Positions 944 through 17,212 of a stretch of 20,302 bases of DNA are shown one piece after another (within the stretch, counting starts at the first letter, position 1; every line of letters starts with the position of its first letter). The DNA is taken from positions 1-20,302 of IMG/VR virus record IMGVR_UViG_3300010293_000048. One strand, given 5' to 3'. A program made the translations under genes and the position numbers. The notes under the pieces were generated by a model that made no database searches, was not told the origin of the DNA, and worked only from the letters and a program-made list of their open reading frames with translations. This DNA is from a virus.

Positions 944-3900
944 GTGGATTTTTATCAGATTAAAGAAAGGAGCGTCAAGAATGGCGTAGTAGAAGTATAT
1001 CCTGACTTTAAGGTAGGTAGGTCTAAAGATTTAATGGTTCGTGGCAAGTCCTTCTATGCAATATGGGACGATGAGCGGCAGATATGGTCTACTGATGAAT
1101 ATGATGTTCAAAGACTTGTTGATTCTGATCTTAGTAAATATAAAGAGAAAGTATTATCAAGAACTGATGGACAGGTTGTAGTAAAATATATGGGGGACTT
1201 CTCAACAAAGTCATGGTCGTTATTTAGAAATTTTATGCAAAATATATCTGATAATGCCCACCAACTTGATGAGAATTTAACCTTTTCCAATACTGAAGTT
1301 AAAAAGAAAGATTATGTTAGTAGAAGATTGCCTTATCCATTAGAGAAAGGAAGTATAGATGCTTATGATGAAATTATCGGAACCCTCTATTCGGAAGGAG
1401 AACGTGAAAAACTCGAATGGGCTATCGGTTCTATTGTGGCGGGAGACGCAAAGGATATACAAAAGTTCATTGTATTATATGGTGAAGCAGGAGCAGGAAA
1501 ATCTACGATGCTTAATATCATTCAGAAATTATTCAGCGGATATTATACGACGTTCGAAGCAAAAGCACTCACCTCATCTAATAACGCTTTTTCCACGGAG
1601 GTGTTCAAAAGCAATCCACTGGTCGCAATTCAACATGATGGTGATCTCTCAAAGATTGAAGACAATACAAAGCTTAATTCCATAATATCTCATGAAGAGA
1701 TGACAATGAATGAGAAATATAAACCTAGTTATATGGCTAGAGTAAATTGTTTCTTGTTTATGGCCACAAATAGACCTGTTAAGATTACAGATGCAAAATC
1801 CGGTATTATTAGAAGATTAATAGATGTTCGTCCAACAGGGCAAAGGATTAATTCAAAAAGATATCAAGCATTAATGCAGCAAATAGATTTTGAACTAGGA
1901 GCCATTGCGAGGCATTGTTTAGAAGTTTATCAGCAAAGAGGAAAAAACTATTATGCGGGGTATAGACCTTTAGACATGATTTTGCAAACTGACGTTTTCT
2001 TTAACTTTGTGGAAGCGCATTATGATATTTTTAAAGAACAAAATGGCGTTACTCTATCACATGCTTATGATATTTATAAAAGGTATTGTGATGATGCTTT
2101 AGTTGAATTTAAATTGCCCAAACATAAGTTTAGGGAAGAGCTTAAAAATTATTTTGAAAGTTTTTTTGATGTAACTCGTGTAGAAGGAAAACAAATTAGA
2201 AGTTATTATTTTGGGTTTATAGCTGAAAAATTCACAACAAAAATTGTAGAAAAAAAAGATGATAAACCAATGTCTTTAGTATTAGATCATGATGAGTCTT
2301 TAATAGATGGTTTGTGCGCTGATTGTAAAGCTCAGTATGCTTCGTCTAATGATATACCAGGAAAAAAATGGGATGAAGTAGAAACCACCTTAAAAGATTT
2401 AGATACTAAAGAAACTCATTATGTAAAAGTTCCTGAAAATCATATTGTCATAGATTTTGACATTAAAGATGAAAAAGGTATAAAATCTTTAGAAAAAAAC
2501 TTGGAAGAAGCCAGTAAATGGCCACCTACATATGCAGAGTTTAGTAAAAGTGGAAAAGGAATACACCTACATTATATATATGCAGGGGATGTTACAAAAT
2601 TAAGTAGAATATATTCTGATGGCATAGAAGTAAAAGTGTTTACAGGTAAAAGCTCATTAAGAAGAAAATTTACAAAAAGTAATAATTTTCCTTTAGCTAC
2701 ATTAAAATCAGGTTTACCCTTGAAAGGAGAAAAAATGATTAATGTCGAAGCCGTTAAAAGCGAAATAGCGCTTCGAAATCTTATAAAAAGAAATCTAAAT
2801 AAAGAGTTCCATCCAGGAACAAAACCAAGTATAGACTTTATATATAAGATTCTTGAAGATGCACATAGTTCAGGTTTAGCTTATGATATTTCAGACATGT
2901 GGCAAGAAGTTTTTGTTTTTGCTAATAATAGTACTAATCAAGCCCCATATTGTTTAGATATAGTTAATAAAATGAAATTTAAATCAGAAAAAGAAAACGC
3001 TCCAATTACAAGTTATGAGGAGGAGATTCTTTTGTTTTATGATGTAGAAGTTTTTCCTAATTTATTTGTTGTGGTATATAAACCAGAAGGAAAACCCCCA
3101 GTTAAAATGATTAACCCATCTTCTTCGATGATAGAAAAACTTCTTAAATTTAAGTTAGTAGGATTTAATTGTAGAAGATATGATAATCATATTTTGTATG
3201 CTAAGTATATCGGGTACTCTATTGAGCAATTGTTTAATCTAAGTCAAAAAATTATAAATGGTAGTGCTAATGCTTTATTTAGAGAGGCATATAATTTATC
3301 ATATACTGATATTTATGACTTCTCTTCAAAAAAACAAAGTTTAAAAAAGTTTGAAATTGAATTAGGTATTCATAAACAAGAATTAGGTTTTAAATGGGAC
3401 GAACCTGTACCTGAAAAAGACTGGGATAAAGTAGCTGATTATTGCGTAAACGATGTTATAGCTACCGAAGAAACATTTAAAGCAAGAAAACAAGATTTTG
3501 TTGCCAGACTTATATTATCTGAGCTTAGTGGTCTAACTCCAAACGATACCACCCAACAGCATACTGCTAAAATTATTTTTGGAGATGATCCGAAGCCTCA
3601 AGAAAAATTTGTGTATACAGATTTATCAGAAATGTTTCCTGGGTATACTTTTGATTTTGGAAAAAGCTCATATAGATATGAAGATCCAGGAGAAGGCGGA
3701 TATGTATATGCAGAACCAGGTACAGAGTCGAATGTAGTATTATTAGATGTAGTATCGATGCACCCAACAAGTTTGATACAGTTAGATATGTTTGGGCCAT
3801 ATACACCAAAGTTTAAAGAGCTTTTAGAGGCTAGGGTGGCCATTAAACATAAAGATTTTAAGAAAGCAAAAAAAATGTTAAATGGGGTTTTAGCAAAATA

Positions 3901-4675
3901 TTTAGAGAATGAAGAACAAGCTTCGGATTTAGCTTATGCGTTAAAAATAGTTATTAATATTGTATATGGTTTAACCTCAGCAAGTTTTGAAAACAAATTT
4001 AGAGATCCTCGTAATAAAGATAATATTGTTGCAAAAAGAGGGGCTTTATTTATGATAGATTTAAAACATGCCGTGCAAGGAAAAGGGTTTCAAGTTATGC
4101 ATATTAAAACTGACTCCATAAAAATTGCTGATGCTACTGAGCAGATCATAGAGTATGTAAAAGAATTTGGCAAAAAATATGGGTATGAGTTTGAGCATGA
4201 AGAAACATTTGAAAAATTTTGTTTAGTTAATGATGCAGTATATATTGCTAAAACTTCAAAAGGAGAGTGGACTGCAACTGGTGCACAATTTGCTCATCCT
4301 TACGTATTCAAAACTTTATTTAGTAAAGAGCCAATAGAGTTTAAAGATTTCTGCGAGACAAAAGCTGTAACTACTTCTTTATATTTGGATATGAATGAGG
4401 CATTAGCTGAAGGGGAACACGATTATCATTTTGTGGGTAAAGTAGGTGAGTTCTGTCCAATTAGACCAGGATTTGGTGGTGGCATATTATTAAGAGAAAA
4501 AGAAGGGAAATACTATGCGGCAACAGGTTCAAAAGGATATCGTTGGATGGAAGCAGAAATGGTTAAAAATTTAGGAAAAGAAGAGTATATTGATCGTTCT
4601 TATTTTGCGTCCTTAGTAGATGACGCAGTAGATACAATATCTAAGTATGGAGATTTTGAGGAATTTATTTCGTAA
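944..4675 (+). CDS. replisome polyprotein: SF3 helicase + AEP primase + family B DNA polymerase
   Basis: A single 1243-residue protein starts at GTG 944 (AAGGAGA at 931-937, spacing 6). Three replication activities appear in order. (1) D5-type SF3 helicase, about 150-430: Walker A GEAGAGKST (180-188), acidic Walker B with D232/D234, sensor MATNRP with N276, then arginines in GIIRRLI. (2) Archaeo-eukaryotic primase (prim-pol), about 440-690: DFD (D504, D506), SKSGKGIHLHY (534-544, H541), GIEVKVF (E562), then a helical primase C-terminal-like part. (3) Family B polymerase with proofreading exonuclease, about 697-1243: exo I DVE (D700, E702), exo II GFNCRRYDN (740-748), exo III YCVND (D837), motif A LDVVSMHP (D935), motif B KIVINIVYG (1001-1009), motif C HIKTDS (D1057). 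The first Asp of the usual DTD is Lys here. It would unwind, prime and copy the phage genome. No frameshift is seen. Confidence 0.93.
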   Translation: MDFYQIKERSVKNGVVEVYPDFKVGRSKDLMVRGKSFYAIWDDERQIWSTDEYDVQRLVDSDLSKYKEKVLSRTDGQVVVKYMGDFSTKSWSLFRNFMQNISDNAHQLDENLTFSNTEVKKKDYVSRRLPYPLEKGSIDAYDEIIGTLYSEGEREKLEWAIGSIVAGDAKDIQKFIVLYGEAGAGKSTMLNIIQKLFSGYYTTFEAKALTSSNNAFSTEVFKSNPLVAIQHDGDLSKIEDNTKLNSIISHEEMTMNEKYKPSYMARVNCFLFMATNRPVKITDAKSGIIRRLIDVRPTGQRINSKRYQALMQQIDFELGAIARHCLEVYQQRGKNYYAGYRPLDMILQTDVFFNFVEAHYDIFKEQNGVTLSHAYDIYKRYCDDALVEFKLPKHKFREELKNYFESFFDVTRVEGKQIRSYYFGFIAEKFTTKIVEKKDDKPMSLVLDHDESLIDGLCADCKAQYASSNDIPGKKWDEVETTLKDLDTKETHYVKVPENHIVIDFDIKDEKGIKSLEKNLEEASKWPPTYAEFSKSGKGIHLHYIYAGDVTKLSRIYSDGIEVKVFTGKSSLRRKFTKSNNFPLATLKSGLPLKGEKMINVEAVKSEIALRNLIKRNLNKEFHPGTKPSIDFIYKILEDAHSSGLAYDISDMWQEVFVFANNSTNQAPYCLDIVNKMKFKSEKENAPITSYEEEILLFYDVEVFPNLFVVVYKPEGKPPVKMINPSSSMIEKLLKFKLVGFNCRRYDNHILYAKYIGYSIEQLFNLSQKIINGSANALFREAYNLSYTDIYDFSSKKQSLKKFEIELGIHKQELGFKWDEPVPEKDWDKVADYCVNDVIATEETFKARKQDFVARLILSELSGLTPNDTTQQHTAKIIFGDDPKPQEKFVYTDLSEMFPGYTFDFGKSSYRYEDPGEGGYVYAEPGTESNVVLLDVVSMHPTSLIQLDMFGPYTPKFKELLEARVAIKHKDFKKAKKMLNGVLAKYLENEEQASDLAYALKIVINIVYGLTSASFENKFRDPRNKDNIVAKRGALFMIDLKHAVQGKGFQVMHIKTDSIKIADATEQIIEYVKEFGKKYGYEFEHEETFEKFCLVNDAVYIAKTSKGEWTATGAQFAHPYVFKTLFSKEPIEFKDFCETKAVTTSLYLDMNEALAEGEHDYHFVGKVGEFCPIRPGFGGGILLREKEGKYYAATGSKGYRWMEAEMVKNLGKEEYIDRSYFASLVDDAVDTISKYGDFEEFIS
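2723..2737 (+). promoter_or_regulatory. internal ribosome binding site and in-frame ATG within the replisome gene
   Basis: AAAGGAG at 2723-2729, a 5-base spacer and ATG at 2735-2737 are in frame with the 944 start (residue 598, in KGEKMINVEA). Initiation here would give a 646-residue product with the primase C-terminal-like region plus the complete polymerase, without helicase and primase catalytic core. Lys-Gly-Glu codons can produce such a sequence by chance, so use is inferred, not shown. Confidence 0.35.
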
Positions 4676-4690: not shown

Positions 4691-5188
4691 ATGCCAAAAA
4701 ATTATCTTGATAATATTGTTGCAGAAGGGGCTCGAATTGGTAGAAGAAATTTTGCTGGTTTGCAGGGAAAATACAATGCAGCAGGTAATCGCAATTTTTG
4801 TTATTTTATGGACCATGATTTAGGATTAAAATTAGAAGAAGATGGGTGGAATGTTAGATGGGCTAAACCTGTAGATGAAGAGGAGCCACCTACACCCTTT
4901 ATTCAAGTTTCAGTTTCTTTTGGGTCGTTTCCACCAAGGATCGTAGTAATTTCTTCTAGAGGGAAAACCGATATAGGAGAAGATAAAGTCAACATGCTTG
5001 ATATGGTAGAAATTGCTAATGTAGATTTAGTAATTCGTCCATATTCTTGGGAAGTAAATGGTAAATCAGGAATAAAAGCCTATTTAAAATCGATGTGGGT
5101 AACGCTTAAGGAAGATGAGTTTGAAAGCAAATATTATGATGTACCAGATAGTGCACTTTCCACATTGATGGGCGAAGTAGTTGATTAA
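4691..5188 (+). CDS. probable single-stranded DNA-binding / replication accessory protein
   Basis: A 165-residue acidic protein with AAAGGAG 5 bases before its ATG, 15 bases after the polymerase stop. It opens with RRNFAGLQGKYN and has RNFCYFM and GWNVRWAKP, then a beta-rich middle (IQVSVSFG, PRIVVISSRGK) and VDLVIRPYSWEVNGKSGIKA before an acidic tail. I associate this pattern with small phage proteins, often annotated as ssDNA-binding, that sit beside polymerases and helicases. The alternating hydrophobic strands would suit an OB-like fold, and the acidic C-terminus is usual for SSB-type proteins. The role rests on context and remembered family resemblance. The next gene starts inside its last codons (8-base overlap). 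Confidence 0.6.
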   Translation: MPKNYLDNIVAEGARIGRRNFAGLQGKYNAAGNRNFCYFMDHDLGLKLEEDGWNVRWAKPVDEEEPPTPFIQVSVSFGSFPPRIVVISSRGKTDIGEDKVNMLDMVEIANVDLVIRPYSWEVNGKSGIKAYLKSMWVTLKEDEFESKYYDVPDSALSTLMGEVVD

Positions 5189-6398
5189 ATTATTTGATTA
5201 TCAAAAAGATACATTAGAAAAACTGAGGTCTGGCTCCATCCTTTGTGGTGGAGTCGGCTCAGGAAAATCTTTAACTGCATTAGCTTATTATTTTGTTAAA
5301 ATTTGTGGCGGGCATTTAGAACCATTTTTTAAGATGCAAGAGCCAATTAGTTTATATATAATAACTACTGCTAGAAAAAGAGATACTTTTGAATGGGATA
5401 AAGAATGTGCACATTTTGGTTTATCAAGAAATCAAGAAATGAGTATTGATAATATTTTAGTAGTAATAGATTCTTGGAATAATATAAATAAATATATAGA
5501 AGTAGAAAATTCGTTTTTCATATTTGATGAGCAAAGAGTAGTAGGGTCTGGGGCTTGGGTAAAAGCTTTTTTAAAAATAACAAAAAAAAATAAATGGCTT
5601 TTATTAACTGCCACTCCTGGAGATAATTGGTTAGATTATGTTCCTGTTTTCGTGGCTAATGGTTTTTATAAGAACCGAACTGATTTCATTAGGTCGCATG
5701 TAATTTTTAATAGTTTTGTAAAATATCCAAAGGTAGACCATTTTATTGATACCTGGAAATTGGTAGAGCATAGAAGAAATATATTAGTGCATATGAATTA
5801 TAAAAAAACTACAGTCGCAGTGCATAAAAATATTATGGTGGGGCATGACGAAATGCTATATCAAAAAGTTTCAAAAAAAAGATGGAATGTATTTGAAGAC
5901 AAACCAATTAAAAATGTTACTGAACTATGTTATGTATGGCGTAAAATTGTTAATACTGATGTTACTAGAATTGAAGCTGTAAAAAAGATTTTAGAAGAAA
6001 ATAAAAAAGTTATAGTGTTTTATAATTTCAATTACGAGTTAGAGATATTAAAAAATATTGGAAACGAATTAGAAATTTCAACTTCAGAATGGAATGGGCA
6101 TAAGCATCAAAAAATTCCTTATACAGAATATTGGTTATATTTAGTTCAGTATACATCTGGGGCAGAAGGATGGAATTGTACAGAGACAGATACAATTGTA
6201 TTTTATTCGCAAAACTATTCTTACAAAGTAATGCACCAGGCAGCAGGAAGAATTGATAGATTAAATACTGAATTTAAAACTTTATATTATTATCATTTAT
6301 TGTCAGGAGCAAAAATCGATTTAGCTATTGCATATTGTTTAAAACATAAGAAAGATTTTAACGAAAACATGCTTCTTAATAAAAAGGTATTCGCGTGA
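5181..6398 (+). CDS. SF2 DNA helicase (DEAD/SNF2-like)
   Basis: A 405-residue superfamily 2 helicase/translocase. Its N-terminus LFDYQKDTLEKL resembles the Q-motif-like start of phage SF2 enzymes. Motif I is GGVGSGKS (K29), motif II DEQR (116-119), motif III TATP (143-146), followed by C-terminal motifs with TSGAEGWNCTETD and motif VI QAAGRIDR (353-360). Both RecA-like lobes are therefore present and look intact. The start is TTG at 5181, overlapping the previous stop by 8 bases with only a weak ribosome binding site, so coupling with the upstream gene is likely. It probably remodels replication forks or recombination intermediates together with the two nucleases downstream. Confidence 0.88.
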   Translation: MIKLFDYQKDTLEKLRSGSILCGGVGSGKSLTALAYYFVKICGGHLEPFFKMQEPISLYIITTARKRDTFEWDKECAHFGLSRNQEMSIDNILVVIDSWNNINKYIEVENSFFIFDEQRVVGSGAWVKAFLKITKKNKWLLLTATPGDNWLDYVPVFVANGFYKNRTDFIRSHVIFNSFVKYPKVDHFIDTWKLVEHRRNILVHMNYKKTTVAVHKNIMVGHDEMLYQKVSKKRWNVFEDKPIKNVTELCYVWRKIVNTDVTRIEAVKKILEENKKVIVFYNFNYELEILKNIGNELEISTSEWNGHKHQKIPYTEYWLYLVQYTSGAEGWNCTETDTIVFYSQNYSYKVMHQAAGRIDRLNTEFKTLYYYHLLSGAKIDLAIAYCLKHKKDFNENMLLNKKVFA

Positions 6399-6474
6399 AA
6401 AACATACCTTATAATAGAAGGAGAAGAAGTCGTTAAGACATTTCTTATATTTTTTGTGAAAAGGAGAACCAAAA

Positions 6475-6792
6475 ATGTTAGAAAGTCGTTTTCAAGCAGC
6501 TTTAATTAAAGAATTAAACGAAATTTTTGTTGGGTGTATAATATTAAAAAATGATGCCAATTATATTCAAGGCTTCCCCGATCTTTTAATTTTGTATAAA
6601 AATAAATGGGCAGCTTTAGAATGTAAAAAGTCTTTAGAAGAAGCTTTTCAACCAAATCAAGAGTATTATTTGGAAGCATTAAATGACATGTCGTATGCTT
6701 CAGTAATTTGTCCAGAAAATAAAGAGGAGGTACTGCATGAAGTTCAACAGGCATTCGGAGTTCATAGGCGAGCACGCTTTTCTCGGCGCTAG
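6475..6792 (+). CDS. VRR-NUC domain nuclease
   Basis: A compact 105-residue nuclease of the VRR-NUC branch of the PD-(D/E)XK superfamily. It shows QGFPDLLIL with D36, then ALECKK with E49 and K51, and the downstream glutamine in QPNQEYY (Q62); E3 may be the helix-1 acid. Single-domain VRR-NUC proteins are common in phage replication blocks, usually next to an SF2 helicase, as here, and are thought to cut branched or replication-intermediate DNA. AAGGAG at 6461-6466 precedes the ATG by 8 bases. The 76 bases between it and the helicase hold only a 13-codon reading frame (6395-6436) of doubtful meaning. Its last 56 bases overlap the next nuclease in another frame. Confidence 0.85.
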   Translation: MLESRFQAALIKELNEIFVGCIILKNDANYIQGFPDLLILYKNKWAALECKKSLEEAFQPNQEYYLEALNDMSYASVICPENKEEVLHEVQQAFGVHRRARFSRR

Positions 6793-7291
6793 TAAATATC
6801 ATTGGATAAATTATGATGAAGAAAAAGTAGCCTTATCTTTTTCTAAATATTTGGCGACAGAAAGAGGAACCCGATTACATGGAATAGCGGATCAACTAAT
6901 CAAAGAAGGTATAAAATTACCAAAAACAAAACAAACATTAAATATGTATGTTAATGATGCTATTGGTTTTAAAATGCAGACAGAACAAGTTTTATTTTTT
7001 TCTGAAAATTGTTTTGGGACAGTAGACGCTATAAGTTTTAAAAAAGATTTTCTTAGAATTCATGATTATAAATCAGGATCTTCGCCTACATCTATGAGGC
7101 AGTTAATGATATATGCTGCTTTATTTTGTTTAGAATATAAATATAATCCAAATAATATTGAGATTGAATTAAGAATATATCAAAGTGATGATATTGAGAT
7201 TTTAGATCCGCCTAGAGAAGAATTGTTATATATTATGGATAAAATAGTTGCCTTTGATAAACTAATCGACCAAATTAAAATGGAGGGGTAA
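6737..7291 (+). CDS. PD-(D/E)XK exonuclease, Cas4/RecB-like
   Basis: A 184-residue nuclease. Visible motifs in order: GTRLHGIAD (H48), an acidic residue at E83 (TEQVLF), GTVDAISF with D97, the core HDYKSG with D110 and K112, then QLMIYAALF (Q122, Y126). This H...D...DxK...QxxxY order is that of the Cas4/RecB/lambda-exonuclease-like branch. No four-cysteine iron-sulphur cluster is visible, so it resembles minimal phage exonucleases rather than CRISPR Cas4. AGAGGAGG (6723-6730) gives a strong ribosome binding site inside the VRR-NUC gene, and the start lies 56 bases before that gene ends. It probably resects DNA ends during phage recombination or replication. Confidence 0.82.
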   Translation: MKFNRHSEFIGEHAFLGASKYHWINYDEEKVALSFSKYLATERGTRLHGIADQLIKEGIKLPKTKQTLNMYVNDAIGFKMQTEQVLFFSENCFGTVDAISFKKDFLRIHDYKSGSSPTSMRQLMIYAALFCLEYKYNPNNIEIELRIYQSDDIEILDPPREELLYIMDKIVAFDKLIDQIKMEG

Positions 7292-7293
7292 AT

Positions 7294-9975
7294 ATGAATG
7301 TCTTAAAACATTATGGTATGCCTCGACGTTCGGGGCGATATCCATGGGGTAGTGGCGAAGAACCGTTTCAAAGAGGAGCCTCGTTTTTAAGAGAATATAA
7401 TGATTTAAGAAAAAAAGGAATGTCTGATGTTGAAATAGCTGAAGGTTGGGGTATGAAATCAGGTGAGCTGCGTTCAAGAAAAACGATTGCCCGTTCTGAA
7501 ATGAGAGCTGATTTATATGCAGAAGCAGTTAGATTAAAAAATAAAGGATATTCAGATAGCGAAATAGGAAGGAAAATGGGGAAAAATGAATCCTCTATTA
7601 GAGCATTATTAGACCCAGTTCTTCAAGAGAGATCGCAAAGAGTTTCCTCATTAGCTAATGTTTTAAAAACTAGTGTTGACGAAAAAAAATATATAGATGT
7701 GGGCTTAGGTATTGAAAATCATTTAGGCGAAAGCCGAACAATGTTAAAAGCAGCAGTTCAAAAGTTAAAACAAGACGGTTATACAATCCATTTTGTTAAA
7801 GTGCCACAAGCAGGCACATCACATAATACGCATATGATGGTTTTGGCTCCTCCAGGAACAGATTGGAAAGAAGTTGAGGCCCATAAAGATCAAATTCAAT
7901 TACCTATGAACCATCAAGTTCTCGAGGAGGGTAGATCTTATTATGGTTTAGGCCCTATAAAAAGTATTTCTTCTAAAGAAGTGTATGTTCGCTATAATGA
8001 AGAAGGCGGGGCAGATAAAGATGGGGTTATTGAAATAAGAAGAGGTGTAGAAAATTTAGATCTAGGGCAAGCTAATTATGCCCAAGTTAGAATAGGTGTA
8101 GACGGAACACATTATCTAAAAGGGATGGCGATGTATGCGGATGATATTCCTGAAGGTTATAATGTGATTTATAATACAAATAAAAAACAAGGTACATCTA
8201 AAGAAAAAGTATTTAAAGCAATGACTGAAGACCCAGACAATCCGTTTGGCGCTCAGATTAAAAAAGGTGGGCAAAGAGGTTCTTTAAATATAGTATATGA
8301 AGAAGGTGATTGGGAAAAATGGTCTAAATCTTTGTCTTCTCAAATATTGTCGAAGCAAGGCCGACCATTAGTAACTCAGCAATTGGATTTAGCTTACAAA
8401 ATAAAAAACGAAGAATACGAAAGTATACTAGCCTTAAACAATCCCGTAATAAGAAAAAAACTTCTTACGTCATTTGCGGATGACGCAGATTCAGCTTCTG
8501 TACATTTAAAAGCAGCAGCATTACCAAGACAAGGCTGGCATACTATTCTGCCATTCCCTAAAATGAATCCACAAGAAATATATGCGCCCAATTACAATGA
8601 TGGGGAACAGGTGGTGCTTATTAGATATCCGCATGGTGGAACATTTGAAATCCCCACTTTAACAGTAAATAATAGACAGCCATTAATAAGTAAAATCATA
8701 GGCAGAGCAAGAGATGCAGTTGGTATACACCCAAAGGTGGCAGAAAGATTATCTGGTGCAGATTTTGATGGGGATTCAGTATTAGTTATTCCTACAAATG
8801 GGAAAACTATAAAAACTACCTCGCCTTTGACCGGTTTACAAAATTTTAGCCCAAGAGAATCTTATCCGCCTTATGATGGAATGAAAACTATGGATGGTGG
8901 GATTTGGAATGAAGCTAAAGGTGAAGTAGATTTTAAAGGTAAATCGCCAAGTTCGAGATCCAAAGGATTACAAATGGGTAATATTTCAAATTTAATAACT
9001 GATATGACAATTAGAGGCGCAGTTGATGACGAAATAGCTAGAGCAGTAAGGCATTCAATGGTGGTAATTGATGCTGAAAAACACCACTTAAATTATAAAA
9101 AATCATTTGTAGATAATGGTATTGCTGCTTTGAAAAAAAGATATCAAGGTAGAGAAGATGCAGGAGCATCGACGATCATTTCAAGAGCTTCTTCTGATAA
9201 ACCGGTTCCGCATAGAAGCGAGTATTTTGATATTGATCCTAAAACAGGTAAAAAAATATGGACCTATACAAATGAGATTAGCACTAAAATAACAATTAAT
9301 AAAAAAGGTGAAAAGATTATAAAGACTATGCCTAAGATAACAATGTCTACTAAAATGTTAGAAGTAGAAGACGCAAGAGAATTATCTTCGGGCACTATAG
9401 TTGAAGGTATTTATGCTACATATGCTAATAAACTAAAAGCATTAGCTAATCAAGCAAGAAAAGCAGCTTATCATACTAAGAGCGTGAGAGTTTCAGAAAC
9501 AGCAAGAAAAGCCTATGCCCCTGAAGTTCAGTCTTTAATGGCTAAATTAAATATAGCTTTAAAGAATGCTCCTTTAGAAAGACAGGCCCAATTATTAGCA
9601 GATAAAGTAGTTAGAATGAAAGTGGACGAGAACCCTCATCTAAAGAAAGATTACGCCACCTTAAAAAAGATTAAAGGCCAGGCAATAGCAGAAGCTAGGG
9701 TGCGTAATGGAGCGTCTAAGAATAGAGTAGATTTTACACCTCGTGAATGGGAAGCAGTTCAAGCTGGGGCATTTACGCATAATGTTTTAACTAAATTAAT
9801 AGACAATTCGGATATTGATAAAGTAAAAACGTATGCTACCCCTCGCCCAACAAATGCTCTTTCCCCTGCTAAATTAGCTAAAGCTAAGGCCATGAAGAAA
9901 TCAGGTTATACAGCTGCTGAAATAGCTCAATCAATAGGTGTTTCTGTAACAACAATTAATAAGGTTACGAAATAG
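7294..9975 (+). CDS. RNA-polymerase-like protein (DFDGD double-psi beta-barrel) with helix-turn-helix domains and HYG-type N-terminal tag
   Basis: An 893-residue protein. Residues 4-22 carry LKHYGMPRRSGRYPWGSG, related to the HYG tag of three head-region proteins here. Two helix-turn-helix-like repeats follow (about 31-63 and 75-107, both with KKG/NKG then D-x-EI) and a third closes the protein (about 856-893, GYTAAEIAQSIGVSVTTI). In the middle, LIRYPHGG (442-449) is followed by RLSGADFDGDSVLVIP, with D490, D492 and D494 matching the Mg-binding NADFDGD loop of the RNA polymerase beta' subunit and YonO-like phage polymerases. THYLKGMAMY (272-281, K276) could belong to the partner beta-like barrel. 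It may transcribe phage late genes; a DNA-binding protein that only borrows the fold is the alternative. I recall relatives in many Bacillota phages, mostly annotated only as helix-turn-helix proteins. Strong ribosome binding site (TGGAGGGG). Confidence 0.75.
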   Translation: MNVLKHYGMPRRSGRYPWGSGEEPFQRGASFLREYNDLRKKGMSDVEIAEGWGMKSGELRSRKTIARSEMRADLYAEAVRLKNKGYSDSEIGRKMGKNESSIRALLDPVLQERSQRVSSLANVLKTSVDEKKYIDVGLGIENHLGESRTMLKAAVQKLKQDGYTIHFVKVPQAGTSHNTHMMVLAPPGTDWKEVEAHKDQIQLPMNHQVLEEGRSYYGLGPIKSISSKEVYVRYNEEGGADKDGVIEIRRGVENLDLGQANYAQVRIGVDGTHYLKGMAMYADDIPEGYNVIYNTNKKQGTSKEKVFKAMTEDPDNPFGAQIKKGGQRGSLNIVYEEGDWEKWSKSLSSQILSKQGRPLVTQQLDLAYKIKNEEYESILALNNPVIRKKLLTSFADDADSASVHLKAAALPRQGWHTILPFPKMNPQEIYAPNYNDGEQVVLIRYPHGGTFEIPTLTVNNRQPLISKIIGRARDAVGIHPKVAERLSGADFDGDSVLVIPTNGKTIKTTSPLTGLQNFSPRESYPPYDGMKTMDGGIWNEAKGEVDFKGKSPSSRSKGLQMGNISNLITDMTIRGAVDDEIARAVRHSMVVIDAEKHHLNYKKSFVDNGIAALKKRYQGREDAGASTIISRASSDKPVPHRSEYFDIDPKTGKKIWTYTNEISTKITINKKGEKIIKTMPKITMSTKMLEVEDARELSSGTIVEGIYATYANKLKALANQARKAAYHTKSVRVSETARKAYAPEVQSLMAKLNIALKNAPLERQAQLLADKVVRMKVDENPHLKKDYATLKKIKGQAIAEARVRNGASKNRVDFTPREWEAVQAGAFTHNVLTKLIDNSDIDKVKTYATPRPTNALSPAKLAKAKAMKKSGYTAAEIAQSIGVSVTTINKVTK

Positions 9976-9992: not shown

Positions 9993-10295
9993 ATGTCTAA
10001 ATCAATGTTAACTACCATAGACAATCCTTTTAACCCATTCACTCAATTTGATGAATGGTATGCCTATGATGTAGGAAAAGGCTACCATACTTGTGCGTAC
10101 CTTGCACGAATTGTTGTAACATCAGAAGAACTTAGTGAAGAAGATGAAAGTATAGCTATTGAAGTAGCTATTGATGAAATTTTAGATTTAAATGATTTAG
10201 GTATTTATAAGAAAGTAACAGAAGAAGATTCAATTAGTAATCAAAAGTTAGATTCTAATACACAAAGTGAAGAGTCAACAGAGTCTGATGCCTAA
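9993..10295 (+). CDS. conserved small acidic phage protein
   Basis: A 100-residue protein preceded by AAAGGAG about 10 bases before its ATG, 17 bases after the polymerase-like gene. The first part, with LTTIDNPFNPFTQFDEWYA and YHTCAYLARI, looks like a small folded domain. The middle is helical and acidic (EELSEEDESIAIEVAIDEIL) and the tail is a low-complexity Ser/Glu/Asp run. I recall this family as a small unknown that often sits just before the small terminase gene in Bacillota siphophages. No catalytic motif is visible and no function can be assigned. It is the last gene before the structured non-coding block at 10296-10528. Confidence 0.75.
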   Translation: MSKSMLTTIDNPFNPFTQFDEWYAYDVGKGYHTCAYLARIVVTSEELSEEDESIAIEVAIDEILDLNDLGIYKKVTEEDSISNQKLDSNTQSEESTESDA

Positions 10296-10300
10296 GTAAA

Positions 10301-10340
10301 CGCATAAGGGGGGGGTCTCGCGTAACATACCCCCCTTGCG
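10301..10340. other. G8/C6 hairpin at the start of the G/C-rich non-coding block
   Basis: A run of eight G (10308-10315) can pair with six C (10330-10335). AAGGGGGG...CCCCCCTT gives 8 base pairs, and a lower CGC/GCG stem continues after a two-base bulge. The loop contains CTCGCG, echoed by ATCGCG at 10342-10347. No U-tract follows directly, so it is not a plain terminator. It may be part of a cos or packaging site, or an RNA structure after the preceding gene. Confidence 0.5.
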
Positions 10341-10345
10341 TATCG

Positions 10346-10379
10346 CGCCCCTCCTAAAAAATTCTCCGGGGGTGTTTTT
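10346..10379 (+). terminator. possible intrinsic terminator
   Basis: CGCCCC (10346-10351) pairs with GGGGTG (10369-10374, one G-U pair), optionally extended by a U-G pair, around a 15-base loop. TTTTT follows at 10375-10379. The G/C stem plus U-tract is terminator-like, but the long loop makes it weaker than a classical one. The last T is also the first base of the long RNA stem described next, so the two elements may influence each other. Confidence 0.4.
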
Positions 10380-10521
10380 CTAGGCATTTTTGGCGGGGGT
10401 ACCAGGGGTTTCTAACAAAACTGGTTTGACACCGGGTTCTCCTTTCAAGAGTCGTGGTTTTTATCACGTCTGAAACTCTTGTTATCTCCACCTAAAGTGC
10501 CTAGATCTCTCTTGAAAGGAG
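10379..10521 (+). ncRNA. candidate structured regulatory RNA leader that can mask the ribosome binding site of the small terminase gene
   Basis: Hand folding shows a long closing stem P1, 10379-10401 with 10483-10505: 21 of 23 positions pair, 3 as G-U. Inside are P2 (CCAG 10402-10405 with CTGG 10421-10424) and P3 (CAAGAGT-CGTG 10446-10456 with CACG 10465-10468 and ACTCTTG 10475-10481). The unpaired joint between P2 and P3 ends in CTCCTTT (10439-10445), exactly complementary to the AAAGGAG ribosome binding site at 10515-10521. The match extends to 13 bases (10439-10451 with 10509-10521) if P3 opens. This is the layout of a translational switch with a pseudoknot. G-U pairs favour RNA over a DNA packaging site, though cos/pac remains possible. 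Confidence 0.55.
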
Positions 10522-10528
10522 TGAAAAA

Positions 10529-11290: not shown

Positions 11291-11656
11291 ATGGATAGTA
11301 TATTAACAGCAGTTAAACAAATGTTAGGGCTACCAGAAGAATATATCCCTTTTGACGAAACTGTGATGATGCATATTAATTCTACTTTTTTAGAATTACA
11401 TCAATTAGGGGTCGGTCCTAAAGACGGTTTTCAAATAGTAGGAAAAGAAGATCTATGGGAGGATTTTGTTATCGATCCATTGCTAATAGGTTATTTAAAA
11501 ACCTATATGTTCATGAAGGTTAAATTAATATTTGATCCTCCTACAACTTCTTTTTTATTAGATGCAATTGACCGACAAATAAATCAAATACAATGGCGAA
11601 TGACGGCACATGTAGAACCACCATTACCAGTGGTGGAGGAGGTAACAGATGAATGA
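11291..11656 (+). CDS. small connector/adaptor-like phage head protein
   Basis: A 121-residue mostly helical protein. The chosen ATG has AGGAGG at 11278-11283 (spacing 7); an upstream GTG at 11270 is in frame but would lie before that site. The pattern DETVMMHINSTFLELHQLGVG, then a Trp-containing segment, IGYLKTYMFMKVKLIFDPP and ending in QINQIQWRM, resembles small helical phage proteins usually called head-tail connector or adaptor (gp6-like). In most siphophages such adaptors follow the capsid gene; here it comes before the large terminase, so the assignment is tentative. It overlaps the next gene by 8 bases, and GGAGGAGG near its end serves that gene. Confidence 0.5.
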   Translation: MDSILTAVKQMLGLPEEYIPFDETVMMHINSTFLELHQLGVGPKDGFQIVGKEDLWEDFVIDPLLIGYLKTYMFMKVKLIFDPPTTSFLLDAIDRQINQIQWRMTAHVEPPLPVVEEVTDE

Positions 11657-12113
11657 TCAATCATATTTAGCCCACTACGGGGTCTTAGGTATGAAGTGGG
11701 GGGTGCGTAGATTAAAGAACAGACATGAAGTTTTGTCCAAAAGAGGAATGTACTTTACAAAGAATCGGGCGGATAAGGCTAAAGCAGCAAGAGAAAGAAA
11801 AATTGCTAGGATAGAGTCTAAAATAGCAGATCGAGAAAAAAATGCTATTAAGAATCTGTCTGATGATGAATTGCGTAAAAGGATAAATCGTCTTCAAATG
11901 GAGAGACAGTATGCGTCATTGAATCCTTCTGCATTAAAAAAAGGTCAAAGATTTGCGTCTAAGATTTTATTAGGGGCTGCCACTGGAGTATTAACTGGTT
12001 TAGTAGTAAAAGGTATGAATTCGGGTTTAAAAACAGCTGGGGCTAAACTTGCAGCAGCGCCAAGCGATTATATTTTAAAAGCTATAGAAAAAGCTTTGAA
12101 TAAAGCAGGATAA
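11649..12113 (+). CDS. HYG-tagged small phage head-region protein (copy 1)
   Basis: A 154-residue basic protein beginning with the tag SYLAHYGVLGMKWGVRR (5-21). A lysine/arginine-rich coiled-coil-like stretch follows (about 40-90), including DDELRKRINRLQMERQYASL, then a hydrophobic helix (about 105-121, ILLGAATGVLTGLVV) and an alanine-rich C-terminal helix. The tag recurs almost unchanged in the proteins at 13879 and 15259. Proteins with this start are frequent in phage head-gene clusters, and I know no experimentally established role for the tag. The single hydrophobic helix could be membrane-active or buried in a capsid assembly. A GGAGGAGG site stands about 8 bases before the ATG. Confidence 0.7.
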   Translation: MNDQSYLAHYGVLGMKWGVRRLKNRHEVLSKRGMYFTKNRADKAKAARERKIARIESKIADREKNAIKNLSDDELRKRINRLQMERQYASLNPSALKKGQRFASKILLGAATGVLTGLVVKGMNSGLKTAGAKLAAAPSDYILKAIEKALNKAG

Positions 12114-13869: not shown

Positions 13870-13949
13870 GGAGGCAACATGTACGATGATCAATCATATT
13901 TAGCCCACTATGGCGTTTTAGGTATGAAATGGGGGATTCGAAAAAAAGT
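13868..13949. repeat. 82-bp perfect direct repeat, copy A (RBS plus HYG tag)
   Basis: Bases 13868-13949 are identical to 15248-15329. The unit covers the ribosome binding site (AAGGAGG), the ATG, and codons 1-23 with part of codon 24, that is the whole HYG tag. A third, diverged version at 11649 shares a 25-base identical core. Perfect identity including third codon positions implies recent duplication or gene conversion. Confidence 0.95.
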
Positions 13950-15153
13950 GGATTCTCCTGGGGTAAAAAAAGCTAAAGAAAATGTAAAGAAAACGAAAAA
14001 GGATTTTAAGATAGAATCTAGGAAAGTGAATCTAAAAAGTGCATTTGGTGTAGCATCGAAAGCAGATTTGGAAAAATTAGAGTCGACAGTGAGAGAGCAT
14101 TCCTATGCTAAAGATGATTTGCGAAGTACTAAAATTCTTGAAAAACTTAATAAAATTAAGAAATCAGAAAAGCAATTAACTTTGGAAAAAGAATATCAAA
14201 AAAAAGGAATGTCCCCAGACGAAGCAGCAGTAGCAGCCTATCAAAATATAAGAACTAAAAAAATATTAATGGGGGTAGCTGCCGTGGCAGTAGTAGCGGG
14301 CGGGGCATATGCTACTTATAAGTATAGAGAACACAATATAGATAAAATTTTAAAAAGTGGTACCATGTTGCAAAATGTTTCGAGCGACGGTACTCTTGGC
14401 GTTAGAGATGTTTTTTATACTACAGATAACGGCCTTGACAAAATTAAATACCGGGGGCTTTATGGTTATGTTTTAAAACTAAAAGAGGGTAATGCGTATA
14501 CTAAGAATATTGAAATATTATCGGATATTAAACAGGCATCGCCTAAAGCTGCTGAAAAAATTCTAGGAGAATTATATAAAAGTGATCCTAATTTTGCTAA
14601 GGTTTTAACAAATGCTGTAAACAATACTTTCTTAGAAATGTCCCCCATTTATATGAGAAAGGTGAAAAAAGCTAGACAAAGTATAGGAGCAGGAATAATT
14701 GATAAAAATGTTTATGAAGTATTTAATGCGTCCTTGGTTGATCATGGCCTAGTTCAACAAACGGCAACTGATCGATATTTACAGGAGCTGGCAAGAAAAG
14801 GATACAATGCAATAAAAGATGTTAACGACTCGAAATATTCTGGGTATGGAGCTATAAATCCTATAATAACTTTCGATACGAAAGGAAAAATAGCAGTAAA
14901 ATCAGTACAAGAATTAGTAGGCCCCCAATTAGTTAAGGATGCAGTTAAAGGAAATGCTATGGTTTTTGTGCCTCAATTAGCTGGATATGGAGGAGTTTAT
15001 GCTGGTTATAAGGCAGGAATTAAAAAGTTTGACGATGTAGCGCAATCAAAAATAAGAGATAATTATGTAAAGGACTATCGTAAAAAACATCCTGATACAA
15101 AAATGTCGAACACTGAAATTTACAGAATGATAGAAAGGTCGAAAAACAAATGA
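13879..15153 (+). CDS. HYG-tagged membrane-segment protein with an unidentified C-terminal domain (copy 2)
   Basis: A 424-residue protein with the tag YLAHYGVLGMKWGIRKK (7-23), a long lysine-rich coiled-coil-like region (about 25-125), one clear hydrophobic helix (about 129-147, AVAVVAGGAYATY), then a roughly 200-residue globular domain. That domain includes GTLGVRDVFYTT, KIKYRGLYGYVL, VYEVFNASLVDH, and a C-terminal RKGYNAIKDVND...INPIITFD (about 306-333). The last part resembles the C-terminal strands of ADP-ribosyltransferase-like or related effector folds in phage head proteins, but I cannot place a full catalytic set, so no enzyme activity is claimed. A weaker hydrophobic stretch lies near 361-376. 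It sits between terminase and portal. AAGGAGG stands about 8 bases before the ATG. Confidence 0.7.
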   Translation: MYDDQSYLAHYGVLGMKWGIRKKVDSPGVKKAKENVKKTKKDFKIESRKVNLKSAFGVASKADLEKLESTVREHSYAKDDLRSTKILEKLNKIKKSEKQLTLEKEYQKKGMSPDEAAVAAYQNIRTKKILMGVAAVAVVAGGAYATYKYREHNIDKILKSGTMLQNVSSDGTLGVRDVFYTTDNGLDKIKYRGLYGYVLKLKEGNAYTKNIEILSDIKQASPKAAEKILGELYKSDPNFAKVLTNAVNNTFLEMSPIYMRKVKKARQSIGAGIIDKNVYEVFNASLVDHGLVQQTATDRYLQELARKGYNAIKDVNDSKYSGYGAINPIITFDTKGKIAVKSVQELVGPQLVKDAVKGNAMVFVPQLAGYGGVYAGYKAGIKKFDDVAQSKIRDNYVKDYRKKHPDTKMSNTEIYRMIERSKNK

Positions 15154-15269
15154 AATCAAAAAAGATATTTTTAGTTTTATTATTGGCTTTTCTTTTAAAA
15201 AAAGTAAAAGTAGGCCCTTGTTCTTCTGAATTAGAAGAGATATTAGCAAGGAGGCAACATGTACGATGA
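15150..15269 (+). CDS. small hydrophobic ORF, 39 codons
   Basis: The ATG overlaps the previous stop as ATGA (15150-15153), and the frame ends at TGA 15267-15269 inside the next gene. The peptide starts MKSKKIFLVLLLAFLLKK, a short basic then hydrophobic segment like a signal anchor, followed by one Cys in VGPCSSELEEIL. GAAAGG at 15133-15138 is about 11 bases upstream, and the tight overlaps suggest coupled translation. It fills the only space between two tagged genes. It could be real or a fortuitous frame; no homologue is recognised. Confidence 0.4.
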   Translation: MKSKKIFLVLLLAFLLKKVKVGPCSSELEEILARRQHVR

Positions 15270-15329
15270 TCAATCATATTTAGCCCACTATGGCGTTTTA
15301 GGTATGAAATGGGGGATTCGAAAAAAAGT
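15248..15329. repeat. 82-bp perfect direct repeat, copy B (RBS plus HYG tag)
   Basis: Identical to 13868-13949, offset by exactly 1380 bases. Recombination between the copies would remove the 424-residue gene and the small ORF, and would place the 15259 reading frame under the upstream copy of the ribosome binding site and tag without disturbing the frame. Confidence 0.95.
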
Positions 15330-15942
15330 ATCAGGTTATATTCGGACTAGAAAAGCAAATGAAATTGCTTATCGTAAAAAGCTAAGAAAAATATTAAAAA
15401 ATCCTTCGGTAAAAGGCACTTCGGATGCAAAAAGATTTGAATGGCGTAATCGTCCATATTCAACAATAATTGCAACAACAGCTGCTAAAAAAGCAGCATT
15501 GCCTTTAATGGCAGTAGGGGTATTAACAGTAGCAGGAAGGCCCATAAGTAAAAAACAGATGCTCTCATTAGCTAAAAATATTGCATTTAAAACAGCTTTT
15601 GAGATTGCCACAAAGGACGCATTGGCTAAATCAGCTGCAAATAAATACCAAGATCACGGAACTAGAAAACCCGGAAAGGCTAGAGGGCTAAACGATTTAG
15701 TATCTAAAGAAGATTTAATGGAGGCAGGCTTGCATGCAGCAGTAATGGGAGCAAAAGCAGGTCACCACTATTATAATGTACAAAGAAAGAAAAAATTCGT
15801 TGACGCAGTTCGCAGAGCCGCAGAAGATAAAAGAGTGTTTGATCGTTGGGGTGGTAGATTGTTGCAAGAAAAAGTCGATAATGTAATTTGGCAATCAGAT
15901 GATTTACAATTGGCGGTTATTGACAATATTAGAAGGCCTTAA
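15259..15942 (+). CDS. HYG-tagged head-region protein (copy 3)
   Basis: A 227-residue very basic protein. The first 23 residues, tag included (YLAHYGVLGMKWGIRKK), are identical to those of the 13879 product. The rest is unrelated in sequence: an Arg/Lys-rich segment, a hydrophobic helix (about 82-94, LPLMAVGVLTVAG), a long alanine-rich helical middle (AFKTAFEIATKDALAKSA), and a C-terminal part with FDRWGGRLLQEK. No catalytic motif is seen. Its place just before the portal, 13 bases upstream, suggests a head or portal-associated role, or an internal head protein. It looks like a different body joined to a shared N-terminal cassette. Confidence 0.7.
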   Translation: MYDDQSYLAHYGVLGMKWGIRKKVSGYIRTRKANEIAYRKKLRKILKNPSVKGTSDAKRFEWRNRPYSTIIATTAAKKAALPLMAVGVLTVAGRPISKKQMLSLAKNIAFKTAFEIATKDALAKSAANKYQDHGTRKPGKARGLNDLVSKEDLMEAGLHAAVMGAKAGHHYYNVQRKKKFVDAVRRAAEDKRVFDRWGGRLLQEKVDNVIWQSDDLQLAVIDNIRRP

Positions 15943-15955
15943 AGGAGGATGATAT

Positions 15956-17212
15956 ATGCCTACAACATTTAGAGAGCGTATTCAACATGCCTGGAATGCG
16001 TTTAGAAACAGAGATCCAGCTGGAGGGTGGTTCCCAGAAGCAGGCATGAGTTATTCTACTAGACCAGATAGAGTAAGGTTAACCATTGGCAATGAACGGT
16101 CCATTATATCTTCTATTTATAACCGTATAGCAATTGACGTAGCGGCTATAGACATAGAACATGTTCGTTTAGATCAAAATGGAAGGTACTTAGAAAGTAT
16201 TGACGGTTCTTTAAATGAATGTTTAAAGATAGAAGCCAACATTGATCAATCGGGAAGAGCATTAATACAAGATATTGTGATGTCTATGTTTGACGAAGGC
16301 ACAGTAGCAGTAGTTCCCGTTGACACAACTATTGATCCTACTAAATCGTCATCATACGAGATTAACACATTAAGAACTGCTAAAATTTTGGAATGGTTTC
16401 CAAATAATGTCCGAGTAAAGATTTATAACGATAAAACTGGACAAAAAGAAGAGTTGACTTTACCAAAAAAAATGGTGGCAATTATTGAAAATCCTTTATA
16501 CGCAGTTATGAATGAGCCTAACTCTACTTTGAGAAGGCTAGTACATAAATTAAATTTGCTCGATGCAATTGACGAGCAAAGTAGTTCAGGGAAGTTAGAT
16601 TTAATTATTCAATTGCCGTATGTAATTAAATCGCAAGCAAGACAAGAACAAGCCGAAAAACGTCGGAAAGATATTGAATTTCAGTTATCAGGCTCTAAGT
16701 ATGGAATAGCTTATACAGACGGTACAGAAAAGGTTACGCAGTTGAATCGCCCAGCAGAGAATAATCTTATGGCCCAAATTGAATATTTAACGAGTATGCT
16801 ATATGGCCAGTTAGGTATTACAGAAAGTGTCATGGATGGTACTGCTGATGAGAAAACAATGCTTAATTATTATAACCGAACTGTGGAACCCATATTAACG
16901 GCAATAACTGAGGAGATGAAAAGAAAGTTCTTAACCAAAACTGCAAGAACTCAGCTTCAGTCTATTGTATATTTCCGCGATCCGTTTAAACTTGTTCCAG
17001 TGAACCAGATGGCAGATATTGCCGACAAGTTCACACGTAATGAAATTCTTTCTTCTAATGATGTTCGTGCTATTATTGGGTATAAGCCATCATCAGATCC
17101 ACGGGCGGAAGAACTTCGTAACAAAAATCTTAATCCTAATGAAGGGGCTAGTAACCCTGTAGAAGAAGATTCTTCACAAAAACTAAGCAAAGGAGGTAAT
17201 CATGAGGTATGA
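15956..17212 (+). CDS. portal protein, HK97-like
   Basis: A 418-residue protein with AAAGGAGG about 7 bases upstream of its ATG. SIYNRIAIDVAAIDIEHV (about 53-70) and the alpha/beta middle match phage portals. GQLGITESVMDG followed by DEKTMLNYYNRTVEPIL is the familiar portal pattern before the long channel helix (ITEEMKRKF), and NEILSSNDVRAIIGYKPS is the usual segment near the C-terminus. The tail is disordered and acidic. Twelve copies would form the DNA gate at one capsid vertex, bound by the terminase during packaging. The ribosome binding site of the next gene (AAAGGAGG, about 17189-17196) lies inside its last codons, with an 11-base overlap. Confidence 0.9.
   Translation: MPTTFRERIQHAWNAFRNRDPAGGWFPEAGMSYSTRPDRVRLTIGNERSIISSIYNRIAIDVAAIDIEHVRLDQNGRYLESIDGSLNECLKIEANIDQSGRALIQDIVMSMFDEGTVAVVPVDTTIDPTKSSSYEINTLRTAKILEWFPNNVRVKIYNDKTGQKEELTLPKKMVAIIENPLYAVMNEPNSTLRRLVHKLNLLDAIDEQSSSGKLDLIIQLPYVIKSQARQEQAEKRRKDIEFQLSGSKYGIAYTDGTEKVTQLNRPAENNLMAQIEYLTSMLYGQLGITESVMDGTADEKTMLNYYNRTVEPILTAITEEMKRKFLTKTARTQLQSIVYFRDPFKLVPVNQMADIADKFTRNEILSSNDVRAIIGYKPSSDPRAEELRNKNLNPNEGASNPVEEDSSQKLSKGGNHEV

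Follow-up and report, generated by a model that had tools for sequence, protein, structure and literature searches.

We analysed a stretch of viral DNA of 20,302 nucleotides (IMG/VR record IMGVR_UViG_3300010293_000048), hereafter the window, and found that one of its genes encodes a predicted single-chain RNA polymerase of the two-barrel class. We hold with moderate confidence that this enzyme is carried in the capsid and starts early, rather than late, transcription from promoters of its own. More generally, phages of Gram-positive bacteria commonly carry a mislabelled protein that appears to be a one-chain RNA polymerase akin to the cellular catalytic core. The gene is an open reading frame (ORF) with an ATG start, and its parts, including helix-turn-helix (HTH) modules and double-psi beta-barrels (DPBB), are as follows.

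7294–9975, + strand: predicted single-chain two-barrel RNA polymerase, 893 amino acids (PHROG 4291, ORF, alignment, model, fold matches).
7303–7356, + strand: N-terminal tag LKHYGMPRRSGRYPWGSG, residues 4–21, predicted disordered, strongly conserved (alignment, model, segment search).
7372–7866, + strand: N-terminal HTH and winged-helix-like modules, residues ~27–191 (profiles, N-terminal model).
7948–8328, + strand: beta-like (DPBB-B) barrel region, residues ~219–345, with invariant K276 and K308 (barrel inferred from fold match; limits approximate).
8506–8808, + strand: beta'-like (DPBB-A) barrel region, residues ~405–505, with R444, P446 and the catalytic ADFDGD (residues 489–494) at 8758–8775 (motif, fold match, conservation).
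9859–9969, + strand: C-terminal HTH, residues 856–892, sigma-region-4-like in most relatives (profile matches).

The preliminary description of this DNA had read the protein as an RNA polymerase from the motif ADFDGDSV, which holds D490, D492 and D494, and from the segment RYPHGG at residues 444–449, N-terminal to it. Both are present as claimed. We aligned 44 sequences, taken from 70 loci and the window after exclusion of truncated and near-duplicate ones, and found that D490, D492, D494, K276, K308, K354, R444 and P446 were identical in 44/44. The three catalytic aspartates, R444 and P446 were also kept in 37/37 of a more divergent set, so the motif is not a chance one. Loss of these aspartates within the family had been named beforehand as a possible refutation, and the counts went the other way.

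An AlphaFold2 model computed from the 44-sequence alignment had a mean predicted local distance difference test score (pLDDT) of 81 and a predicted template modelling score (pTM) of 0.71. When the model was compared with solved structures using Foldseek, all 10 matches below E 0.001 were QDE-1, RDR2 and the Thermus-phage protein P74 gp62. The VIA comparison gave only the two-barrel class in rows 1–16 (QDE-1, RDR2, P74 gp62 and P32 gp64; Z 11.9–17.4, 336–390 residues aligned), with alignments that mostly spanned model residues ~219–725 (for example QDE-1 7y7s: Z 16.6, 4.3 Å, 377 residues). The fold matches and the invariant residues lead to the conclusion that the predicted core is a single-chain two-barrel RNA polymerase, in line with the earlier proposal, and the family enzyme would be expected to synthesise RNA on a DNA template. 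Profile searches returned chiefly HTH proteins and designed helical repeats, and the single window sequence had no match among the PDB sequences.

Residues 2–892 of the protein match PHROG 4291 with 1172.6 bits, which makes it a full-length member. The label of that group is RNA-dependent RNA polymerase; the match gives the family and says nothing on the type of template. Using tblastn, we found the polymerase in 250 of 50,697 phage records, mainly from phages of Arthrobacter, Gordonia, Streptomyces, Lactococcus and Curtobacterium. Of the 74 viral stretches that matched the pattern, 71 proved to hold a relative, and the family profile confirmed at least 518 among the 599 viral stretches listed. 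Relatives were also confirmed in 137 of 250 stretches from bacterial and archaeal genome assemblies, and 80 of these loci, mostly from gut Firmicutes, were kept. The earlier statement that relatives are labelled only as HTH proteins is incomplete. It is true of many phage records, where HTH DNA-binding protein is the sole label, but PHROG 4291 and several RefSeq records name an RNA-dependent RNA polymerase, one record has "putative RNA polymerase", and others have hypothetical protein.

Modules likely to read DNA flank the core. The family profiles placed HTHs at residues 69–106 and 856–892, and the N-terminal model adds an HTH near 27–60 and a winged helix near 108–201. HTH_23 matched 44/44 members and Sigma70_r4_2 matched 38/44 at E ≤ 0.001. 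In Lactococcus phage 1706, the homologue orf75 has Sigma70_r4_2 (108–129) and Sigma70_r4 (976–1001) above the Pfam cut-offs. The N-terminal part modelled alone reached a pLDDT of 87; Foldseek gave no match to it below E 0.001, and its VIA neighbours (Z 5.6–7.5 each) were mostly winged-helix/HTH proteins. DNA-reading modules at both ends of the polymerase are well supported, as had been suggested at first, while the three HTH segments counted then have become four candidate DNA-binding modules.

We derived a promoter-like motif from words enriched between the genes of phages 1706 and Mudcat, aligned gap-free with one site of Scap1 and one of the window. A first pattern, TTACA-N4-CTATArT, was discarded because it missed the window site, which the wider gap-free alignment recovered. 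The consensus is tCGCr-N6-ACA-N5-TATArT, non-sigma-70 in type and on the gene strand.

6391–6418, + strand: promoter-like motif TCGCGTGAAAAACATACCTTATAATAGA before the nuclease-exonuclease-polymerase operon (gap-free alignment with 1706, Mudcat and Scap1 sites).

We tested the expression C[GA]C.{7}ACA.{5}TATA[AG]T on polymerase loci excluding the defining records (2.31 Mb). The strand of the polymerase had 72 distinct sites and the opposite strand 2; the expectation was about 1. Over 230 distinct loci, all 73 sites were in the 1.08 Mb upstream of the polymerase, with none in the 0.41 Mb downstream or in the 0.57 Mb of the gene itself, and 39 of the 73 fell 700–1300 bases before it. The second base was always G in the upstream sites, though the expression permitted A; further bias beyond the expression was seen in a T before CGC (86%) and in purines after TATAAT. 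A ribosome-site-plus-start pattern followed within 300 bases at 363 of 377 distinct sites (all loci, including those fetched by the motif). Among the loci from cellular genome assemblies there were 16 upstream, 1 downstream and 0 opposite-strand sites.

Three phages outside the motif definition, Tanis, AddiRose and ReqiPoco6, had 12, 4 and 13 sites, all of them on the gene strand (AddiRose was scanned from base 5000 and ReqiPoco6 from 28100, so that late regions were partly covered). Their sites lie in the early block, in ReqiPoco6 also before nuclease genes; one Tanis site, at 38198, looks like chance. Most motif copies fall in the gene block directly after the tail and lysis genes, and the motif is common to phages of Lactococcus, Arthrobacter, Streptomyces, Gordonia, Curtobacterium and Rhodococcus.

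The search was also run in the other direction. A scan of viral contigs with TCGCRN6ACAN5TATAATRRA gave at least 120 stretches, many with several copies, whereas the reversed pattern gave 53 stretches in the whole collection, with one copy each. The polymerase was encoded in 35 of 50 motif-bearing contigs (those of at least 28.9 kb from 80 listed) and in 0 of 28 controls (those of at least 33 kb from the 53). The polymerase is absent from 15 motif contigs: 12 of these have the same DNA polymerase and/or protease-capsid fusion and may be fragments, and 3 have neither. The motif is a shared, strand-specific, early-region, promoter-like element of the polymerase-bearing phage group. That the polymerase itself reads it is what the sequences suggest.

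A sigma-70-type reading of the motif was rejected, since it has no −35 box: TTGACA-like boxes at a spacing of 16–18 were rarer at motif sites (7.7%) than at positions drawn at random (12.7%). In the window, a generic sigma-70 scan returned 73 sites, and shuffles gave 78.8. The polymerase had at first been tied to the late genes, and this part was not supported: the motif occupies early regions and precedes the polymerase operon, none of the 230 loci has a site downstream, and a late-gene promoter role was rejected on the same count. Two further features accompany the motif. A conserved leader, TATAATGAGACCCCTAyGAA, lies 3' of many copies in actinophages (Tanis 28634–38252, ReqiPoco6 40924–50272, record coordinates). 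In phage 1706, at 24.3–25.2 kb, T-rich tracts such as TTCTTCTATTTTTTTT directly precede several copies and may be terminators or upstream elements.

The second line of evidence is the N-terminal tag, whose consensus in the polymerase is L.HYG..SGRYPWGSG. Like the motif and the cos site, it does not figure in the preliminary description. Residues 1–26 have a pLDDT below 50, yet 9 of these 26 columns are invariant, compared with 93 of 893 overall. This segment is predicted to be disordered and is strongly conserved, which is the mark of a linear signal. H.G directly precedes SGRY.xGSG in 233 of 237 polymerase segments; one of the four exceptions is cut by a contig end, and three have L-x-H or V-x-H further upstream. 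Among the loci from cellular genome assemblies, the strict form was present in 68 of 80, and most of the other 12 were variants. Three late proteins of the window carry a related tag, LAHYGVLGMKWG, of the HYG..MKWG type (DUF7211), and the window also encodes the putative protease.

11649–12113, + strand: late protein with the related tag LAHYGVLGMKWG (DUF7211), before the large terminase gene (Pfam match).
13879–15153, + strand: late protein with the tag LAHYGVLGMKWG (Pfam match).
15259–15942, + strand: late protein with the tag LAHYGVLGMKWG, before the portal gene (Pfam match).
17202–18923, + strand: prohead protease-major capsid protein fusion, with repeated L.H[AGSY] sites in the linker (profile matches, site count).

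In a faecal phage (L148) and in L052, head-module proteins at matching late positions bear the polymerase version of the tag (for example LAHYGLPRRSGRYKWGSG), which indicates that the two versions are interchangeable, as far as the sequences tell. The Pfam family of the HYG..MKWG tag, DUF7211 (PF23847), had no match to the polymerase; the link is made by position and by the swap on the late proteins. A strict regular expression for both tags had 0 matches in reversed sequences of 1.82 million residues, and gave 89 distinct segments that are not DFDGD proteins, some of them polymerase fragments. On the − strand of contig L170, three ORFs have a polymerase-type tag, two of them with GNAT acetyltransferase domains; these are possible packaged enzymes.

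The tag begins with L-x-H, and the same triplet recurs in the protease-capsid fusions. We examined 21 of them and found that the linker (121–340) holds 99 [LIVMF]xH[AGSY] sites, compared with 9.6 in residue shuffles; the capsid part holds 4, compared with 3.5. Eleven fusions have a recognisable LFP landmark where the capsid domain starts, and in 10 of them L-x-H lies no more than ~14 residues before it; the other 10 fusions lack the landmark. Internal proteins of phage T4 carry N-terminal capsid-targeting sequences with a three-residue protease site, L-x-E, and are sent into the prohead by this signal. Because of this analogy, L-x-H is probably a prohead-protease cleavage site, and the tag could be a signal for both capsid targeting and cleavage. 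In contrast to T4, the putative site here is L-x-H, and the conserved tag runs on beyond it.

The records of phage 1706 bear on the presence of the polymerase in the virion. In the original GenBank record, EU081845, orf75 is labelled "structural protein", while most uncharacterised ORFs are "unknown"; the RefSeq name is RNA-dependent RNA polymerase. The ReqiPoco6 record refers to "1706_gp75 structural protein", and this does not count as evidence apart from the 1706 label. The full tag occurs in only orf7 and orf75 among the 76 ORFs, and both are labelled structural. Going by tag and label, the polymerase may be a virion protein.

The following sequence of events could account for these results. 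Two double-psi barrels with a Mg-binding DxDGD loop form the predicted core, as model and conservation show, and the flanking HTH and winged-helix modules would read the promoter. The tag L.HYG...SGRYPWGSG would be a capsid-targeting signal with the prohead-protease site L-x-H, so that the head would contain the enzyme and eject it together with the DNA. Once in the new host, the enzyme would start at tCGCr-N6-ACA-N5-TATArT promoters and transcribe the early genes and its own nuclease/polymerase operon. The late genes would probably be read by another polymerase, perhaps that of the host.

Several points weigh against this scheme. Sequence profiles reach known polymerases weakly (phage beta' chains at E 1.6–1.7), and hhalign against YonO, with one YonO sequence as template, gave a probability of 3.2 and a match outside the core. 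The strict motif was found upstream (within ~10 kb at most) in only 14 of 76 distinct loci from cellular assemblies, and only 54 viral loci carry it, many contigs being short. Co-occurrence with the motif does not single out the polymerase, because these phages share many other genes. The label "structural protein" in 1706 is also borne by orf62 and orf71, which lie among the early genes and may be contaminants. The second of these (L261 19658–20011) resembles, at its C-terminus (RGVLGT), the cytoplasmic Acb2 cyclic-nucleotide sponges. A prophage would begin induction without a virion polymerase. Finally, TATAAT is a perfect host −10 box, and host polymerase together with a phage activator could read the motif.

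The last point can be developed into an explanation in which host polymerase and sigma read the motif, aided by a phage activator that binds CGC and ACA, and the two-barrel protein has another job. We consider this unlikely, though it deserves serious weight; the host enzyme is reported to read the late genes of P23-45. Against it, the same three-part motif in phages of six host genera calls for a shared phage reader, and TTGACA-like boxes are scarce at its sites. Moreover, no other transcription protein common to all the genomes was seen in the part of the gene families compared.

It is also conceivable, but in our judgement quite unlikely, that the two-barrel polymerase is made after infection and serves early or middle genes as a non-virion enzyme, like P23-45 gp64 or YonO, with the tag used for docking to, for example, a head or replication protein. 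Its gene sits with replication and recombination genes, outside the structural module, and one motif copy precedes its own operon. P23-45 gp64 is reported to be absent from virions, and YonO to be a prophage enzyme that acts on the late genes of SPbeta. However, the tag is common to the polymerase and head-module proteins, and the 1706 homologue was deposited as a structural protein. Most motif copies lie directly after the tail and lysis genes, which suggests that the polymerase is present at entry.

A capsid-carried early polymerase can be set beside known enzymes, and the family belongs with the phage single-chain two-barrel polymerases (P23-45, crAss-like, YonO). It is a distinct variant by virtue of its fused sigma-4-like readers, its tag and its motif, and none of these was found described in our literature search. 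That search, with subscription papers outside its scope, found no paper on the family's promoter or tag, and "GMKWG" gave one unrelated match; the main text of a Faecalibacterium phage paper has no "RNA polymerase". The crAss-like phage phi14:2 gp66 is reportedly located in the virion with a role in early-gene transcription, and is said to be a much larger chain from other hosts. Neither gp66 nor the crAss-like structure 6VR4 is among the best 50 VIA entries listed, which has no bearing either way. It is likewise reported to be a single-chain two-barrel RNA polymerase with elements common to QDE-1, as far as gp66 is concerned.

The RNA polymerases of the Thermus phages P23-45, P74-26 and P32 share the single-chain two-barrel core (8f5m Z 13.2, 8f72 Z 13.0). 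These phages are reported to have promoter motifs of their own, described as AT-rich and GC-rich (set beside the present motif by description only), and a virion enzyme that reads pre-early genes: gp96 is in the virion, fused to the tape measure, and gp64 or gp62 is not. Unlike the present family, they are not known to have terminal HTH modules or a HYG tag. The P23-45 paper compares 23 families, and the present one may be among them. YonO of the Bacillus prophage SPbeta is described as a DNA-dependent single chain of ~100 kDa with two-barrel homology and a DxDxD triad, but it is reported to read late genes. The earlier likening of the catalytic loop to beta'-type and YonO-like enzymes is supported at the level of the two-barrel fold class; kinship to YonO, compared by profile with a single YonO sequence, was undetected, with no similarity in the core.

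QDE-1 and plant RDR2 are the best fold matches (Z 11.9–17.4 over 347–390 residues), whereas they are eukaryotic RNA-interference enzymes without fused HTH modules or a phage tag. Their position as nearest solved folds favours the name given by PHROGs and RefSeq, an RNA-dependent RNA polymerase. So does PF05183 (RdRP), which matched 16 of 37 divergent members at E ≤ 0.01; it scored 22.1 bits on 1706 orf75, below the cut-off of 23.8, and had no match to the window protein at E ≤ 1. We nevertheless find this reading very improbable, because double-stranded DNA is what the HTH and sigma-region-4-like modules point to. YonO, which belongs to the same broad class, depends on DNA, and the Thermus-phage enzymes of the same fold are reported to transcribe from DNA promoters. 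That the protein is a polymerase relic with a solely DNA-binding or structural role, as the many records naming an HTH protein could imply, is hardly credible with the catalytic aspartates and barrel residues invariant in 44/44 and 37/37.

The surroundings of the gene are summarised below.

6475–6792, + strand: endonuclease gene (PHROG 93), first of the polymerase operon (PHROG match).
6737–7291, + strand: exonuclease gene (PHROG 3953; PD-(D/E)XK) (profile matches).
9993–10295, + strand: small partner gene (PHROG 4303) directly 3' of the polymerase (PHROG match, locus comparison).
10305–10375, no strand: cos-type genome end, cut near 10352/10353 (homology with Scap1 and Mudcat genome ends).

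The G+C-rich stretch 10296–10430 (52.6% in a window of 34.8%) matches the ends of the Scap1 and Mudcat genomes when these are joined, and a 3' cos overhang is marked at the end of the ReqiPoco6 record. In the linear records of 1706, Scap1, Mudcat, Tanis, AddiRose and ReqiPoco6, the polymerase gene comes last but one. Its position immediately before the late genes, noted in the preliminary description, is correct on the contig, but the cos end at ~10352/10353 lies between, so that they are at opposite ends of the linear virion genome. With a lambda-like order of ejection, if applicable, the end carrying the polymerase gene would enter first.

Of 261 loci with room for it, 256 have the PHROG 4303 gene directly after the polymerase; its small protein may be a cofactor of the polymerase or a genome-end protein. 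Between the cos site and the first late gene, at 10440–10522, a 12-base inverted repeat (TCCTTTCAAGAG ... CTCTTGAAAGGA), whose right arm covers the ribosome site, could gate late translation or be a packaging site. An A+T-rich intergenic stretch at ~660–945, which precedes the primase-polymerase gene, contains repeated TGTAACA / TGTTACA boxes and is a possible replication origin. In the single chain of 1243 amino acids encoded by that gene (944–4675, PHROG 4210), a DNA polymerase is joined to a helicase/primase-like ATPase (DUF5906, D5-like). The window had no Rfam match and no tRNA. Elsewhere in the group, the AddiRose record gives gp60 as a cyclic nucleotide sequestering protein.

Annotation as "HTH protein" or "RNA-dependent RNA polymerase" hides this family in hundreds of phages (250 deposited records among them) and in its gut Firmicutes relatives. 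An enzyme of ~100 kDa with a predicted promoter provides material for how catalysis and promoter recognition are joined in one chain. For common laboratory phages, our proposal predicts that the tag marks packaged proteins and that the motif marks early start sites. We tentatively suggest, with somewhat less than even confidence, that many phages of Gram-positive bacteria have a self-contained system of entry transcription. It would combine fused sigma-region-4-like readers, a general N-terminal cargo tag for the prohead (L-x-H, then YG...WG), trimming by the prohead protease, ejection with the genome end that carries the polymerase's own gene, and a dedicated early promoter. These phages would then use a promoter-specific, perhaps virion-carried, minimal polymerase. 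If this is true, the same tag would deliver other enzymes, such as GNAT acetyltransferases, and could be used to predict injected phage proteins.

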